Part shown: one piece after another, positions 19,375-29,200 of the stretch
How the letters are laid out: the number at the start of each line of letters is the position of its first letter
How positions within the stretch are numbered: the stretch's first letter is position 1
NCBI GenBank assembly: GCA_018240405.1
Contig: JAFEFW010000006.1
Location: forward strand, 1 to 51,613
DNA: 51,613 nt
Direction: 5' to 3'
DNA from: Pseudomonadota bacterium
GTDB taxonomy: Bacteria; Pseudomonadota; Alphaproteobacteria; Acetobacterales; Acetobacteraceae
The notes under the pieces: model-generated
What the model was told of the DNA's origin: nothing
The model's input: only the letters and a program-made list of their open reading frames with translations
Databases searched by the model: none
Translations under genes and position numbers: made by a program

Positions 19375-21072
19375 GTGCTAACAATCCGGATTATGACACG
19401 CAACAGCGCTCTGCGGGAGACGATCCCCCTCCCCGACACCATCGCCGGCCGCTCGATCGTCCTGGTCGGGCTGATGGGGGCCGGCAAGACGTCGATCGGC
19501 CGCCGACTTGCCGCGCGCCTTGGCCTGCCGTTCCGCGATGCCGACCAGGAGATCGAACTCGCGGCCGGCTGCACCATCCCGGAATTGTTTGCCCGCTACG
19601 GCGAACCGGCGTTTCGTGATGGGGAGCGCCGGGTGATCCGCCGCCTGTTGGCTGGCGACCCGATGGTGCTGGCGTATGGCGGCGGCGCCTTCATGGATGC
19701 GCAGACCCGTCAGGCGACCCGGGATGAGGCGGTGTCGGTCTGGCTCCGCTGCACGCTGCCGACGCTGGTGCGGCGCGTCGCCAGCCGCGACAATCGTCCG
19801 CTGCTGGCGGGGAAGGATCACGAGGAGACGCTGCGCCAACTGATGGAGCGGCGTTACCCGGTCTACGCCGAGGCTGACGTCATAGTGGACTGTGGCGACG
19901 AACCACCAGATCACACGACAAACGGCGTACTGAATGCGCTGATGGAGTGGCGGCCAGCCCGGCGACTACATGTCGTGCTGCCGAGCACGAGCTACGATGT
20001 GGTGATCGGCGACAACCTGCTGGCGCGCGCTGGCGCCCTGCTGGCGCCGCGCCTGCCGCAGAAGCGCGCCGTCGTGATCAGCGACAGGACGGTGGCAGAT
20101 CTTCATCTGCCGACACTGATGGCTGGTCTTGAGGAGACCGCGGTACAGGCTTCCTCAATCATCGTGCCACCGGGCGAGGCGACGAAGAACCTCGATACCT
20201 ATCTGAACGTCGTCGATCAGTTGCTGGAGATGCGGGTTGAACGGCGCACAGCGGTGATCGCTCTGGGCGGCGGCGTGGTCGGCGATCTCGCCGGCTTCTC
20301 CGCGGCAACGACTTTGCGCGGGCTGCCATTCGTGCAAATTCCGACCACGCTGCTGTCGCAGGTGGATTCCTCGGTCGGCGGCAAGACCGGCGTGAACACG
20401 CGGCGGGGCAAGAACCTGGTCGGCGCGTTCTACCAGCCGAAGATGGTGCTGGCTGATACCGGCACGCTGGCCACGCTGCCGCCACGCGAATTGCGCGCCG
20501 GCTATGCCGAGATCGTCAAGGCCGGCCTGATCGGCGATGCGGCGTTCTTCGCCTGGTGCGAGCGGCACGGGCCGGGGGTCGTCGACGGCGACCGGGAGGC
20601 GCAGGCCGAAGCGATCAAGCGCGCCTGCGCCTTCAAGGCGGCGGTCGTCGGCGACGATGAGCGCGAGGAAAAGCCGAATGATGGCCGCGCGCTGCTGAAC
20701 CTCGGCCACACGTTTGGTCACGCGCTGGAGGCGGAGTATGGCTATGATGGCGGCCTGCTGCACGGCGAAGGCGTCGCCGTCGGACTCGGCCTTGCCTATA
20801 AGCTGTCGGCACGGTTGGGCCACTGCCCGCAGGCGGATGCGGAACGGGTGATTGCGCATGTCTCCGCGGTGGGCCTGCCGGCGGAATTGTCGATGCTGAA
20901 CCGGCGCTTCTCGGCGGCAACGCTGATTGGCCACATGCGGCGGGACAAGAAGGTGCGCGATGGAGCATTGCACTTCGTGCTGGCGCGCGGCATTGGGCAG
21001 GCGTTCACCAGTGCTGACGTGCCGCCGGATGCAGTGATGGACCTGCTGCGGGACGAGGGGTGCGAGGCGTAG
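19375..21072 (+). CDS. aroKB: bifunctional shikimate kinase / 3-dehydroquinate synthase
   Basis: One 565-residue chain joins two enzymes of aromatic amino acid synthesis. Residues about 22-190 are shikimate kinase: P-loop GLMGAGKTSIGRRLA, the shikimate-binding DADQEIE and GGGAFMD, and the lid around RDNRPLL. Residues about 195-560 are NAD-dependent dehydroquinate synthase: VVIGDNLLARAG, ALGGGVVGDLAGFSAAT, TTLLSQVDSSVGGKTGVN and the zinc-binding region NLGHTFGHALE. The two steps are not consecutive in the pathway, so fusion probably serves joint expression. The GTG at 19375 has AGGA 6 nt upstream; ATG 19393 is an alternative without one. Such fusions are familiar from Acetobacteraceae and relatives. 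Confidence 0.95.
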   Translation: MLTIRIMTRNSALRETIPLPDTIAGRSIVLVGLMGAGKTSIGRRLAARLGLPFRDADQEIELAAGCTIPELFARYGEPAFRDGERRVIRRLLAGDPMVLAYGGGAFMDAQTRQATRDEAVSVWLRCTLPTLVRRVASRDNRPLLAGKDHEETLRQLMERRYPVYAEADVIVDCGDEPPDHTTNGVLNALMEWRPARRLHVVLPSTSYDVVIGDNLLARAGALLAPRLPQKRAVVISDRTVADLHLPTLMAGLEETAVQASSIIVPPGEATKNLDTYLNVVDQLLEMRVERRTAVIALGGGVVGDLAGFSAATTLRGLPFVQIPTTLLSQVDSSVGGKTGVNTRRGKNLVGAFYQPKMVLADTGTLATLPPRELRAGYAEIVKAGLIGDAAFFAWCERHGPGVVDGDREAQAEAIKRACAFKAAVVGDDEREEKPNDGRALLNLGHTFGHALEAEYGYDGGLLHGEGVAVGLGLAYKLSARLGHCPQADAERVIAHVSAVGLPAELSMLNRRFSAATLIGHMRRDKKVRDGALHFVLARGIGQAFTSADVPPDAVMDLLRDEGCEA

Positions 21073-25915: not shown

Positions 25916-27121
25916 ATGCCTGAAGGTCGGCTGCTTGCATCCGATACCTGTCTGGTTGACGGCGCTTCCTCGGAGACCGTTCGGGACGCGCGGGCGATGC
26001 ATGTCAGTGCGGATAGCCTGGCGCGCCTGCCGGTCCAGCGCCTCGCGCGCCTGTTGCTGGAGCGCGCTGCCGAGGACCCGGCCCTGCTCGGCCGCCTGCA
26101 TGACTCCCTCGGCCAGGAGCCCGTGCTGACGCCCCGATCCGATCGCTCGAGGATCATCGGTGCCAGCGCGCCGATGCGGCAGATCGCCGCACTGATCGAG
26201 CGCTTTGGCCAAACCGACGACCCCGTGCTGATCACCGGCGAGAGTGGCACGGGCAAGGAATTGATTGCCCACGCGATCCACCAGCACTCGCGCCGGTGCC
26301 GGGGCCCGTTCGTCGTCGTCAACTGCGCCGCGATCCCACCTGGCTTGGTGACATCGGAACTATTCGGATTTGAAAAAGGTGCGTTCACCGGTGCCGTTGC
26401 CCGTGGCATCGGCCAGATCGAGCACGCCCATGGCGGCACCCTGTTCCTGGATGAGATTGGCGATATGCCCGTGGACCTGCAGGCGCACCTGCTGCGCTTC
26501 CTGCAGGACGGGCAAATCCGCCGTGTCGGCGGCCGGGAAACATTGGGGGTCAATGTCCGTATCGTCTCGGCGACGAATGTCCGCCTGCGCGCGGCCATAG
26601 CGGCGGGCCGGTTTCGGGAGGACCTGTTCTACCGCCTGAACGTGCTGACTGTACCAGTCCCGCCGCTGCGCGACCGGCCCGACGACATCGTGCCGCTCGC
26701 GCGGCACTTCCAGGCCGTAGCCGCGGCGGATTTCGGGCGCCCGCACGACGGCTTCACGCTAGGAGCGGAACGCCTGCTGGTGCGTCATGGCTGGCCCGGC
26801 AACGTGCGTGAACTGATGGCCGTTGTGCGGCGCGCAGTCGTAGTCAGCGACAACGCGCGGCTGGATGTCCCGGACCTCGCGGGCCTGGACGACGCGGTTG
26901 GAGCGCGGGACGACGCTGCGCCTGCCGCGCCGAAGCCGGGCTCGGAGGAGGAGCGGGCCGCGCTGGTCACCGCCCTGGAACGATCCGGGGAGAACATCAC
27001 CTCCACCGCGCAAGCGCTACGGGTTTCGCGCGTCACGCTGTACCGGATGTTGCGGCGGCACCGGATCGAGCTGAAGCGCGGCCTGGCCGAGGCGCCGCTC
27101 ACGCGGCACGGCCCGCGCTGA
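25916..27121 (+). CDS. sigma-54-dependent transcriptional activator without receiver domain
   Basis: This 401-residue enhancer-binding protein has a short N-terminal region (1-75, no REC, PAS or GAF motif visible), an AAA+ domain with Walker A GESGTGKE (108-115), the sigma-54 contact loop GAFTGA (155-160), Walker B TLFLDE (175-180) and the arginine-finger region GRFREDLFYRLN (231-242), then a Fis-type helix-turn-helix (357-383, ENITSTAQALRVSRVTLYRML). All residues for opening sigma-54 promoters are intact. A GTG at 25847 would extend it, but ATG 25916 has GGAAGG 7 nt upstream. Three consensus -24/-12 promoters lie in the following 2 kb, so it probably controls genes next to it. How it senses a signal is unclear. 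Confidence 0.93.
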   Translation: MPEGRLLASDTCLVDGASSETVRDARAMHVSADSLARLPVQRLARLLLERAAEDPALLGRLHDSLGQEPVLTPRSDRSRIIGASAPMRQIAALIERFGQTDDPVLITGESGTGKELIAHAIHQHSRRCRGPFVVVNCAAIPPGLVTSELFGFEKGAFTGAVARGIGQIEHAHGGTLFLDEIGDMPVDLQAHLLRFLQDGQIRRVGGRETLGVNVRIVSATNVRLRAAIAAGRFREDLFYRLNVLTVPVPPLRDRPDDIVPLARHFQAVAAADFGRPHDGFTLGAERLLVRHGWPGNVRELMAVVRRAVVVSDNARLDVPDLAGLDDAVGARDDAAPAAPKPGSEEERAALVTALERSGENITSTAQALRVSRVTLYRMLRRHRIELKRGLAEAPLTRHGPR

Positions 27122-27158: not shown

Positions 27159-27458
27159 TCACAGCCTCAGCGGGATAAGGGCAAGCGCCTCTGCCAGGCT
27201 ACCGCGAACGGCCGAGATGGTTTCGTCGTCAACCGTGGCCAGGACCCATTGCGATTGGTACCGCACAAGCAGCCAGGATGCCAGCAGGCGGCCGGTCTCA
27301 AACACGCCGATGACGACCTCAAGGTCGGGACTGCCCCATGGCCGAGCAGCAAAATCGATCACGGCGTCAATGCCGGCATGGCGGACACGGTCGAGCCACT
27401 CAGCGAGTCGCTGCCGATCGGCGGAATCCAGCCCGGTCATGCTCATCTGCTGTGGCAT
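27159..27458 (-). CDS. uncharacterised 99-aa protein behind a sigma-54 promoter
   Basis: The protein is soluble, without signal peptide or membrane helix, and mixes helices and strands: a first helix (DSADRQRLAEWLDRVRHAG, residues 11-29), a strand pair (DLEVVIGVFETGRLLASWLLVRY, about 45-67) and a final helix (ETISAVRGSLAEALAL, 78-93). I do not recognise a family. The start could also be Met5 or Met7, since no strong ribosome-binding site is visible. It is convergent with the sigma-54 activator (37 bp between stops). A consensus -24/-12 promoter on this strand at 27645-27659 points at it with a leader of about 175 nt, which supports its being a real, regulated gene. Confidence 0.6.
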   Translation of the reverse strand: MPQQMSMTGLDSADRQRLAEWLDRVRHAGIDAVIDFAARPWGSPDLEVVIGVFETGRLLASWLLVRYQSQWVLATVDDETISAVRGSLAEALALIPLRL

Positions 27459-27644: not shown

Positions 27645-27659
27645 GCAATCACCGTGCCA
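27645..27659 (-). promoter_or_regulatory. sigma-54 (-24/-12) promoter for the 99-aa gene
   Basis: The minus strand reads TGGCACGGTGATTGC, an exact match to the RpoN consensus TGGCACG-N4-TTGC with GG and GC separated by ten bases. Transcription should begin about 12 nt further, near 27634. It is back to back with the plus-strand promoter at 27674, with 14 bp between their -24 ends. Confidence 0.8.
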
Positions 27660-27673
27660 TCATTATGCGGGCT

Positions 27674-27688
27674 TGGCACGGCCGTTGC
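27674..27688 (+). promoter_or_regulatory. sigma-54 (-24/-12) promoter for the Cys-rich secreted protein
   Basis: The plus strand reads TGGCACGGCCGTTGC, an exact RpoN consensus with the GG-N10-GC spacing. The predicted start near 27700 leaves a 30-nt leader before ATG 27731. A perfect 12-bp palindrome (CGTCGGCCGACG, 27513-27524) lies about 150 bp upstream, a distance usual for activator sites; its link to the activator is inference. Confidence 0.8.
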
Positions 27689-27730: not shown

Positions 27731-28105
27731 ATGAAAACCATCATTCGGACCGCCTGCCTGCTCACTCTCGTCGTAGGGATCACGCCGACACCTGCGCCGG
27801 CCGCCCCGTTCTGTATTCAGAACCAAGTACTGCCGCCGCAGTGCATATACGTGGACGCCCAGGAGTGCGCGCGCGAGGCACAGCGGCAGAACGCGCAGTG
27901 CACGCCGAACATCTCGCAGTATCGCCTGTCTCAACGCCACGGCGAATACTGTGTGGTAACGTCGTCCGGCGCCGCCGTCTGCGCCTATGCCGACTATCAG
28001 ACCTGCTCCACCGAAGCGCAACGGCAGCGCGGTGCCTGCATGCAGGCACAGCCGAACCGCGCTGCTCGCGAGCCAAACCCGTATTCTCCGCTGAATGGCT
28101 TCTAA
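27731..28105 (+). CDS. secreted protein with two identical-spacing four-Cys repeats (DUF3551-like)
   Basis: This 124-residue protein has a signal peptide (MKTIIRTACLLTLVVGITPT, cleavage near 24-26) and two tandem repeats. Repeat one has Cys28, 38, 46 and 57; repeat two has Cys74, 84, 92 and 103. The gaps are 10-8-11 in both and the period is 46 residues, so this is an internal duplication. Each ends in a similar helix (ECAREAQRQNAQC and TCSTEAQRQRGAC). The Cys pattern recalls the alphaproteobacterial DUF3551 family, which normally has one such unit. Two disulfides per repeat in the periplasm are likely. AGGACA precedes the ATG. Expression should depend on sigma-54. No function is known. Confidence 0.8.
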   Translation: MKTIIRTACLLTLVVGITPTPAPAAPFCIQNQVLPPQCIYVDAQECAREAQRQNAQCTPNISQYRLSQRHGEYCVVTSSGAAVCAYADYQTCSTEAQRQRGACMQAQPNRAAREPNPYSPLNGF

Positions 28106-28146: not shown

Positions 28147-28968
28147 TTATCGGGCGGGTGTCGGAGCCGAGTTGGTAATGACTGTCCCAGCGGTAGCCGT
28201 TGGATTCAACAAATAGGAGAACCCGAAGCTCGGATTTGCGAATTGCTGGATATACTGGTTATACCATTTGTAAACTTCCGCGATACCGAGCTTCGGCACG
28301 TAGACGACGTCGTAGGGCGCGAGACGGATATCGGCGATCGGGTCGTTTCCAGTGCGCAGCGCATTCCAGCTTGTTGACAGGAACTCTGGCCGATCGCCCG
28401 GCCCGCGCCGGATCACGAACACCGATCCCTCATCACCGCTGAGCTTGACGCCGCCGGCACGCGCGATCGCCTGCGACAACGTAAGCGTCGGACCGACTGT
28501 AATGAATTCACCTGGCGTGTTCACCTCGCCGCCAACATAAACTCGCGTCGGCGCGAAAGACTTCACGACGACGCTGAGCCGTGGACGCTGCAATTCCTTC
28601 GCATACGCCTGGCGCAGCGTATCGGCCAGATCCGCCGGCGTGCGGCCGTAAGCCACGGCGTCCGGCACAACGGTCGTGGATATGTGACCATCCGGGCGGA
28701 CCGAGACTTCCTCGTTCAATTCCGGGTTCAGCAGCAGCCGAACCTCCAGCACATCGCCGATCTGAATGCGATATGGTGGCAGATTGGCAACATAGGAGGC
28801 CGGCGCCGGCTCAGGCGGTGCCGGCGGCAGCGAGGGCACGACGGAGCAGGCCGTCAACGCCAGTGCGGACGCAATGGATACGGCAGCAGGCCACGTCCTT
28901 CGCGGCAGCGTGGCGCAAGGCATTTCGGTTTTGCTACGGAGCGCCTGTCGGATTGGGAGTTGCCGCAT
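28147..28968 (-). CDS. polysaccharide export lipoprotein, Wza-like (Poly_export/SLBB)
   Basis: This 273-residue outer-membrane lipoprotein has a lipobox LTAC with Cys41 as the lipidation site. The Poly_export domain follows (about 62-150: YRIQIGDVLEVRLLLNPELNEEVSVRPDGHIS), then an SLBB domain (about 150-235: VYVGGEVNTPGEFITVGPTLTLSQAIARAGG). Wza-like proteins form the channel by which exopolysaccharide or capsule leaves the cell. No polymerase, chain-length protein or glycosyltransferase of such a pathway is adjacent, so it is a solitary copy. ATG 28968 has AAGGA close by and leaves an N-terminus of usual length; in-frame codons further upstream are ignored. A consensus sigma-54 promoter lies about 107 nt upstream. 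Confidence 0.9.
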   Translation of the reverse strand: MRQLPIRQALRSKTEMPCATLPRRTWPAAVSIASALALTACSVVPSLPPAPPEPAPASYVANLPPYRIQIGDVLEVRLLLNPELNEEVSVRPDGHISTTVVPDAVAYGRTPADLADTLRQAYAKELQRPRLSVVVKSFAPTRVYVGGEVNTPGEFITVGPTLTLSQAIARAGGVKLSGDEGSVFVIRRGPGDRPEFLSTSWNALRTGNDPIADIRLAPYDVVYVPKLGIAEVYKWYNQYIQQFANPSFGFSYLLNPTATAGTVITNSAPTPAR

Positions 28969-29074: not shown

Positions 29075-29090
29075 AGCAAGTCCTGTGCCA
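29075..29090 (-). promoter_or_regulatory. sigma-54 (-24/-12) promoter for the polysaccharide export gene
   Basis: The minus strand reads TGGCACAGGACTTGCT: TGGCAC and TTGCT with GG-N10-GC spacing, one base off the full consensus. The predicted start is near 29064, about 95 nt before the ATG. It faces the Wza-like gene and lies in a 232-bp gap without other features. Confidence 0.78.
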
Positions 29091-29137: not shown

Positions 29138-29149
29138 CGTTACGTAACG
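29138..29149. promoter_or_regulatory. candidate activator site: 12-bp palindrome upstream of the export promoter
   Basis: CGTTACGTAACG is a perfect inverted repeat, 48 bp upstream of the -24 element. A second TTACGT half-site lies next to it (29152-29158 on the minus strand). The position fits an upstream activating sequence for an enhancer-binding protein; identity of the binder is inference. Confidence 0.45.
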
Positions 29150-29200
29150 GCCACGTAAGCCGTTGCATCGCAGCTGACGCGGTAGACCGCGAAGCCACGA

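Follow-up and report, generated by a model that had tools for sequence, protein, structure and literature searches.

The locus examined here raises a specific question. Two sigma-54 promoter sequences stand back to back in the gap between a 99-aa gene (P99) and a gene for a secreted-looking, DUF3551-like protein, beside the gene of a sigma-54 activator (ACT). Are they working promoters, which activator would serve them, and are the two genes expressed together or as alternatives?

The divergent promoter pair and its recurrence

In the window (the whole stretch of 51,613 nucleotides that was analysed), the two predicted sigma-54 promoters are that of P99 (27645-27659, minus strand) and that of the DUF3551-like gene (27674-27688, plus strand). 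Transcription starts at about 27633 and 27700, respectively, are expected from the position of the -12 elements. Both sites match TGGCACG-N4-TTGC exactly (11/11 specified bases), including the GG and GC dinucleotides of the -24/-12 consensus, and 14 bp (27660-27673) separate the two -24 ends. The sequence-only reading was accurate in these respects, as well as in the neighbours it named, i.e., the activator gene (25916-27121, plus strand), the 99-aa gene (27159-27458, minus strand) and the secreted-looking Cys-rich gene (27731-28105, plus strand). Elsewhere in the window, a single 565-aa frame (19375-21072) fuses shikimate kinase with 3-dehydroquinate synthase.

The window contains two exact matches to the consensus against 0.05 expected, and 0/100 dinucleotide shuffles reached two. 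With up to two mismatches allowed, the 31 matches in the window are at chance level (30.2 expected), so that weight can be placed only on exact or near-exact sites. Analysis of the organism's own genome (7.37 Mb) revealed 17 exact matches versus 4 with a reversed control, as well as one rpoN match (Sigma54_DBD, 223.7 bits). Five of the 17 are located on contig C615, which carries nifH, nifD, nifK and nifB according to NCBIfam, and they serve as a positive control for the consensus in this genome. The nif cluster of C615 (L122, L123) together with its five sigma-54 sites also indicates that the organism is likely a nitrogen fixer.

The second gene of the pair encodes a 124-aa protein with a signal-like N-terminus and nine Cys residues, eight of which follow the signal-like part. 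Its match to DUF3551 (PF12071) falls just below the gathering cut-off (24.0 vs. 26.5 bits), and those of its relatives in G015 and G024 reach 22.1 and 21.2 bits. The gene is placed between the exporter gene and P99, pointing away from P99, in the own genome (G000) and in G015, G030 and G002. Strong divergent sites, each scoring at least 8.8, were found at the equivalent place in G015 and G030, the latter being the cultured type strain Rhodopila globiformis DSM 161. The chance of such a pair in a given gap was about 1e-6 to 3e-6 in first-order simulated DNA. In G002 the gene order is kept, but only degenerate sites occur between P99 and the DUF3551-like gene, and the intergenic DNA of the window gave no BLAST match at the pair's place in any of 59 relatives.

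The arrangement without strong sites in G002 could suggest that the pair represents inactive sites or chance matches. This is highly improbable, given that no shuffle produced two exact sites and that the pair recurs in G015 and G030 although their intergenic DNA has no BLAST match to that of the window. The pair in the window very probably constitutes real sigma-54 promoters, whose occurrence goes with that of the adjacent activator gene, and would be expected to depend on sigma-54 in vivo.

It had also been proposed that two holoenzymes could hardly occupy such close promoters at once and that the two genes may therefore be alternatives or form a switch. The spacing in the window and the 15 bp found in G015 agree with this proposal, as does the rarity of close back-to-back pairs. 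When 385 genomes sampled from the class were searched with the relaxed pattern TGGCAYR-N4-TTGC and gaps of 5-35 bp, such pairs were present in four (own genome included), and the reversed control gave none. However, the gap in G030 is 85 bp, 58 bp of which consist of a 14-bp tandem repeat, and the closeness of the two sites is thus not conserved. The other three close-pair genomes (L156, L157, and L158) belong to one other genus and have gaps of 28 to 30 bp. The L156 pair adjoins a gene that Pfam identifies as an ammonium transporter and the L157 pair one for a P-II protein, while the frame by the pair in L158, which was not Pfam-scanned, starts like that of L156. Genes of the ammonium-transporter and P-II type are usually induced together, so that two of these three pairs speak against alternative expression. 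The upstream edge of the sigma-54 closed complex is at about -34; with the starts given above, the two complexes would just meet, so that both might be bound at once, and the steric argument is weak. Furthermore, 10 of 14 relatives have P99 behind the exporter gene with its sigma-54 site, both on one strand, an arrangement that argues for joint expression. We therefore regard a switch as very unlikely.

The exporter gene and its promoter

The neighbouring gene (28147-28968, minus strand, start taken at ATG 28968) encodes a wza-like polysaccharide export protein, with matches to Poly_export (55.1 bits), SLBB_2 (38.8 bits) and SLBB (32.9 bits), all above the cut-off. Named matches of the exporter place the window's relatives in Rhodopila and other Acetobacteraceae, and the own genome belongs with Rhodopila (Acetobacteraceae). 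The predicted sigma-54 promoter of the exporter is located at 29075-29090 on the minus strand (TGGCACAGGACTTGCT). The exporter adjoins ACT and P99 in 13 of the 14 relatives with ACT. A site scoring at least 8.8 was found upstream of the exporter, or of its first copy, in 13/13 of these and in the window. The fourteenth (G026) carries ACT and P99, with an exporter about 12 kb away and no site near it.

Alignment of the exporter promoters revealed a conserved dyad-like element further upstream (29140-29159 in the window, minus strand), which is likely the activator site. Its right half, TTACGTWA, is present in all 14 aligned promoters (window's included), while the left half, TTGACG, is found in 12/14, being absent from those of the window and G002. 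The distance from the start of TTACGTWA to the -24 element is 48, 57-59 or 89 bp; these values differ by approximately whole helical turns, which would fit an activator site. A similar but less exact element was detected in L174, a locus from Acetobacteraceae outside the first set.

A scan of named genomes yielded 26 loci with an exporter relative, of which 22, overlapping the first set, were examined and the four weakest (30-39% identity) were left out. ACT is present in 14 of the 22 loci and the promoter in 14/14 of those; in 11 it was seen directly at the exporter, and in L169 to L171, where the exporter is present twice, it precedes the first copy. In the eight loci without ACT in the sequence covered, the 800 bp upstream contained no site of at least 7.6, counting only those with GG and GC (0/8), although in two of them (L175 and L178) the exporter lies at the sequence end and the ACT side falls outside the sequence covered. 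Weaker sites (7.9-8.3) occur at least 1.3 kb upstream of exporters without ACT in L103, L105, L110, and L114. The genomes of the named loci are related, so that a plain statistical test would make the association look stronger than it is. In addition, a block around GTTTCAC...CTCACGCC recurs just past the predicted start in the exporter 5' leaders of several genomes (e.g., L083, L087). A GTTTCA block was also noticed in G015, G023, and G030, in the leader of P99.

ACT and its association with P99

ACT, whose gene is about 0.5 kb from the promoter pair, combines an AAA+ domain with the GAFTGA loop (Sigma54_activat, from residue 80), an AAA lid and a Fis-type HTH (HTH_8). No receiver domain was found, there being no Response_reg match at E 0.01 or better. 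The best NCBIfam match is PrsR (TIGR02915), below its cut-off (334.9 vs. 502.6 bits), with which ACT has the AAA+ sigma-54 interaction domain and the Fis-type HTH in common. The own genome contains eight matches to ACT, i.e., other activators are present, including a full PrsK-PrsR-PrsT set on contig C575, the PrsR of which has a receiver domain. In a 32-row tree, the ACT orthologues and the C575 PrsR were placed on opposite sides. A branch supported at 86/78 sets the ACT group apart, with a relative from another genus (G074) as its long-branched neighbour. Judging from its domains and closest matches, ACT is a receiver-less relative of PrsR, and its position and co-occurrence with the locus suggest that it would be the activator acting there. 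As to the C575 set (L154), no sigma-54 site above 8.1 was found in the 20 kb read. A sigma-54 site (9.8) at 4894-4909 of L125 lies directly 5' of a gene whose product weakly matches PEP-CTERM models at its C-terminus.

P99 had no match to a family in the libraries searched. The predicted model is a small alpha-beta fold (pLDDT 81.6, pTM 0.73) with no clear match among solved structures, the fold comparison not being decisive. Its gene lies near that of ACT and converges with it in the window and in all 15 other mapped loci. The comparison drew on 99 genomes, the own one and 98 relatives, with 33 in the own genus. ACT orthologues (at least 62% identity) were found in 14 of the 98, all within these 33. 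These 14 genomes also have P99, always at most 1.2 kb from ACT, and one further, marginal P99 match came from G064 (E 9.8e-4). Owing to the relatedness of the genomes and the overlap between the two collections, such counts overstate independence. The pattern extends to L174, where all three genes (exporter, P99 and ACT) occur and sites of 9.3 and 9.2 precede the exporter and P99, respectively. On the other hand, G074 (L090) carries an ACT relative (391-aa ORF, 55-58% identical) with no P99 match, a finding that counts against a strict pairing of ACT and P99.

The placement of P99 relative to the exporter varies. In three of the 10 relatives with P99 behind the exporter, G018, G020, and G021 (L080, L085, and L078, respectively), the exporter is duplicated and P99 lies between the copies. 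A strong site of its own precedes P99 also in G015, G030, G023, G026, and L174; altogether 6 of the 16 loci examined have a P99 site of at least 8.4, and a seventh (G025) has one of 8.2. P99 is not directly behind the exporter in five genomes, four of which have a strong P99 site.

In G024, the order of the exporter, the DUF3551-like gene and the SLT gene is kept, ACT and P99 are absent, and no site of at least 7.9 was found near the exporter or the DUF3551-like gene. ACT and P99 thus appear to have been acquired or lost jointly, in company with the sigma-54 promoters. Since ACT lacks any sensory domain that could be recognised and is accompanied by P99, the latter is probably its partner, a proposal that draws on this co-occurrence and on precedents from other systems. 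A more far-reaching version can be put forward only tentatively: ACT and P99 would be a cassette gained and lost as a unit, with P99 as the signal-receiving partner, the neighbouring exporter under sigma-54 control and the sigma-54 promoter of P99 closing a feedback loop.

A proposed local export regulon and its relation to known systems

We consider it reasonably probable (about 0.6) that the pair represents genuine sigma-54 promoters of a small local polysaccharide-export regulon, in which the exporter, P99 and the DUF3551-like gene are jointly activated by ACT and P99 is probably the partner of ACT. ACT would bind the dyad upstream of the exporter gene and activate it, and would also activate the pair, whether bound at the exporter, bound at weak sites or free in solution, so that the three proteins would be made together. 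P99 might then restrain ACT in a feedback loop, as PspA does with PspF, or support it, as FliX does with FlbD. The sites and their recurrence, the element upstream of the exporter and the co-occurrence of the genes were observed directly, whereas dependence on sigma-54 in vivo, the part played by ACT as activator, co-activation of the pair with the exporter and the role of P99 are what we infer.

The most serious competitor is that the pair is driven by another activator, for example a nitrogen or PEP-CTERM regulator, with ACT controlling only the exporter. The upstream element of the exporter was not found near the pair, with best scores of 5.2 in G000, -3.6 in G030 and -9.8 in G015, compared with 28.4 at the exporter of the window. 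The 5.2 match overlaps the plus-strand promoter and is equalled at only three places in the window, but has no counterpart in G015 and G030; any action of ACT on the pair would thus need distance or a weak site. The presence of further activators in the genome, the full PrsR with PrsK and PrsT among them, and of the nif cluster with its sigma-54 sites also fits a different regulator. However, such a regulator would not explain G024, in which ACT and P99 are missing and the DUF3551-like gene has no such site. Moreover, among 18 DUF3551-like relatives (window's own aside), four lie in ACT loci and three of those (G015, G030, and G026) have a site before the gene, in contrast to none of the 14 elsewhere at a threshold of 8.3 within 1.5 kb upstream (the highest being 8.2 in G023, at 1.26 kb). 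Control by another activator is therefore, in our opinion, a minority possibility, though one to be taken seriously, and the jointly activated export regulon is the reading that we prefer.

Parts of this regulon have parallels. PspA, which accompanies the activator PspF, is a small trans-acting protein. A sigma-54 activator with a small trans-acting partner is also known in FliX-FlbD (PMC3096577). P99 differs from both FliX and PspA in that its sequence matches no known family and its fold none clearly, and any interaction with ACT is putative. Regarding the activator, work on the PrsK/PrsR control of PEP-CTERM genes (TIGR02915/TIGR02916) predicted PrsR-type promoters that carry a motif upstream (Haft 2006, PMC1569441), and RpoN dependence of a PEP-CTERM gene was demonstrated in Aquincola (PMC9850573). 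ACT resembles that system in having PrsR as nearest activator and in its link to exopolysaccharide, and the exporter promoter resembles PrsR promoters in carrying a motif a few tens of bp upstream of -24/-12. In contrast, ACT lacks a detectable receiver and scores below the PrsR cut-off, its predicted targets are a wza-like exporter and small proteins, and the exporter's element has no terminal TTTACA, unlike the PrsR motif reported in PMC1569441. The canonical PrsK-PrsR-PrsT genes, moreover, are located elsewhere in the own genome, away from the ACT locus.

Divergent operons that share sigma-54 and a single activator have precedents. In Desulfovibrio vulgaris, the type III secretion operons are divergent, controlled by RpoN and one activator, and situated beside the activator's own gene (PMC4641369). 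The orange protein complex is likewise reported to involve divergent sigma-54 units under one activator (title cited in PMC4641369). In E. coli, sgrR and sgrST-setA are divergent and under RpoN and NtrC (PMC8743547). The window is similar in its two divergent sigma-54 units and, with regard to D. vulgaris, in the adjoining activator gene. It differs in the close spacing of the -24 elements and in showing no activator site in the gap. Some sigma-54 promoters of D. vulgaris, some of them exopolysaccharide-linked, likewise have no predicted activator site (PMC4641369). The earlier impression that the arrangement corresponds to no known system holds only in part. It has to be given up for the divergent layout, but a receiver-less activator with P99 and an exporter target seems to be undescribed, no paper on it having been found in a literature collection that lacks most subscription journals.

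The proposed regulon can be approached directly, given that R. globiformis DSM 161 is in culture and carries the divergent pair, and G024 offers a natural knock-out, in which the promoters of the neighbouring genes are absent along with ACT and P99. If our reading is correct, the locus would represent a second, sensor-less branch of sigma-54 control over exopolysaccharide export, and P99 would be named as the likely missing signal input.
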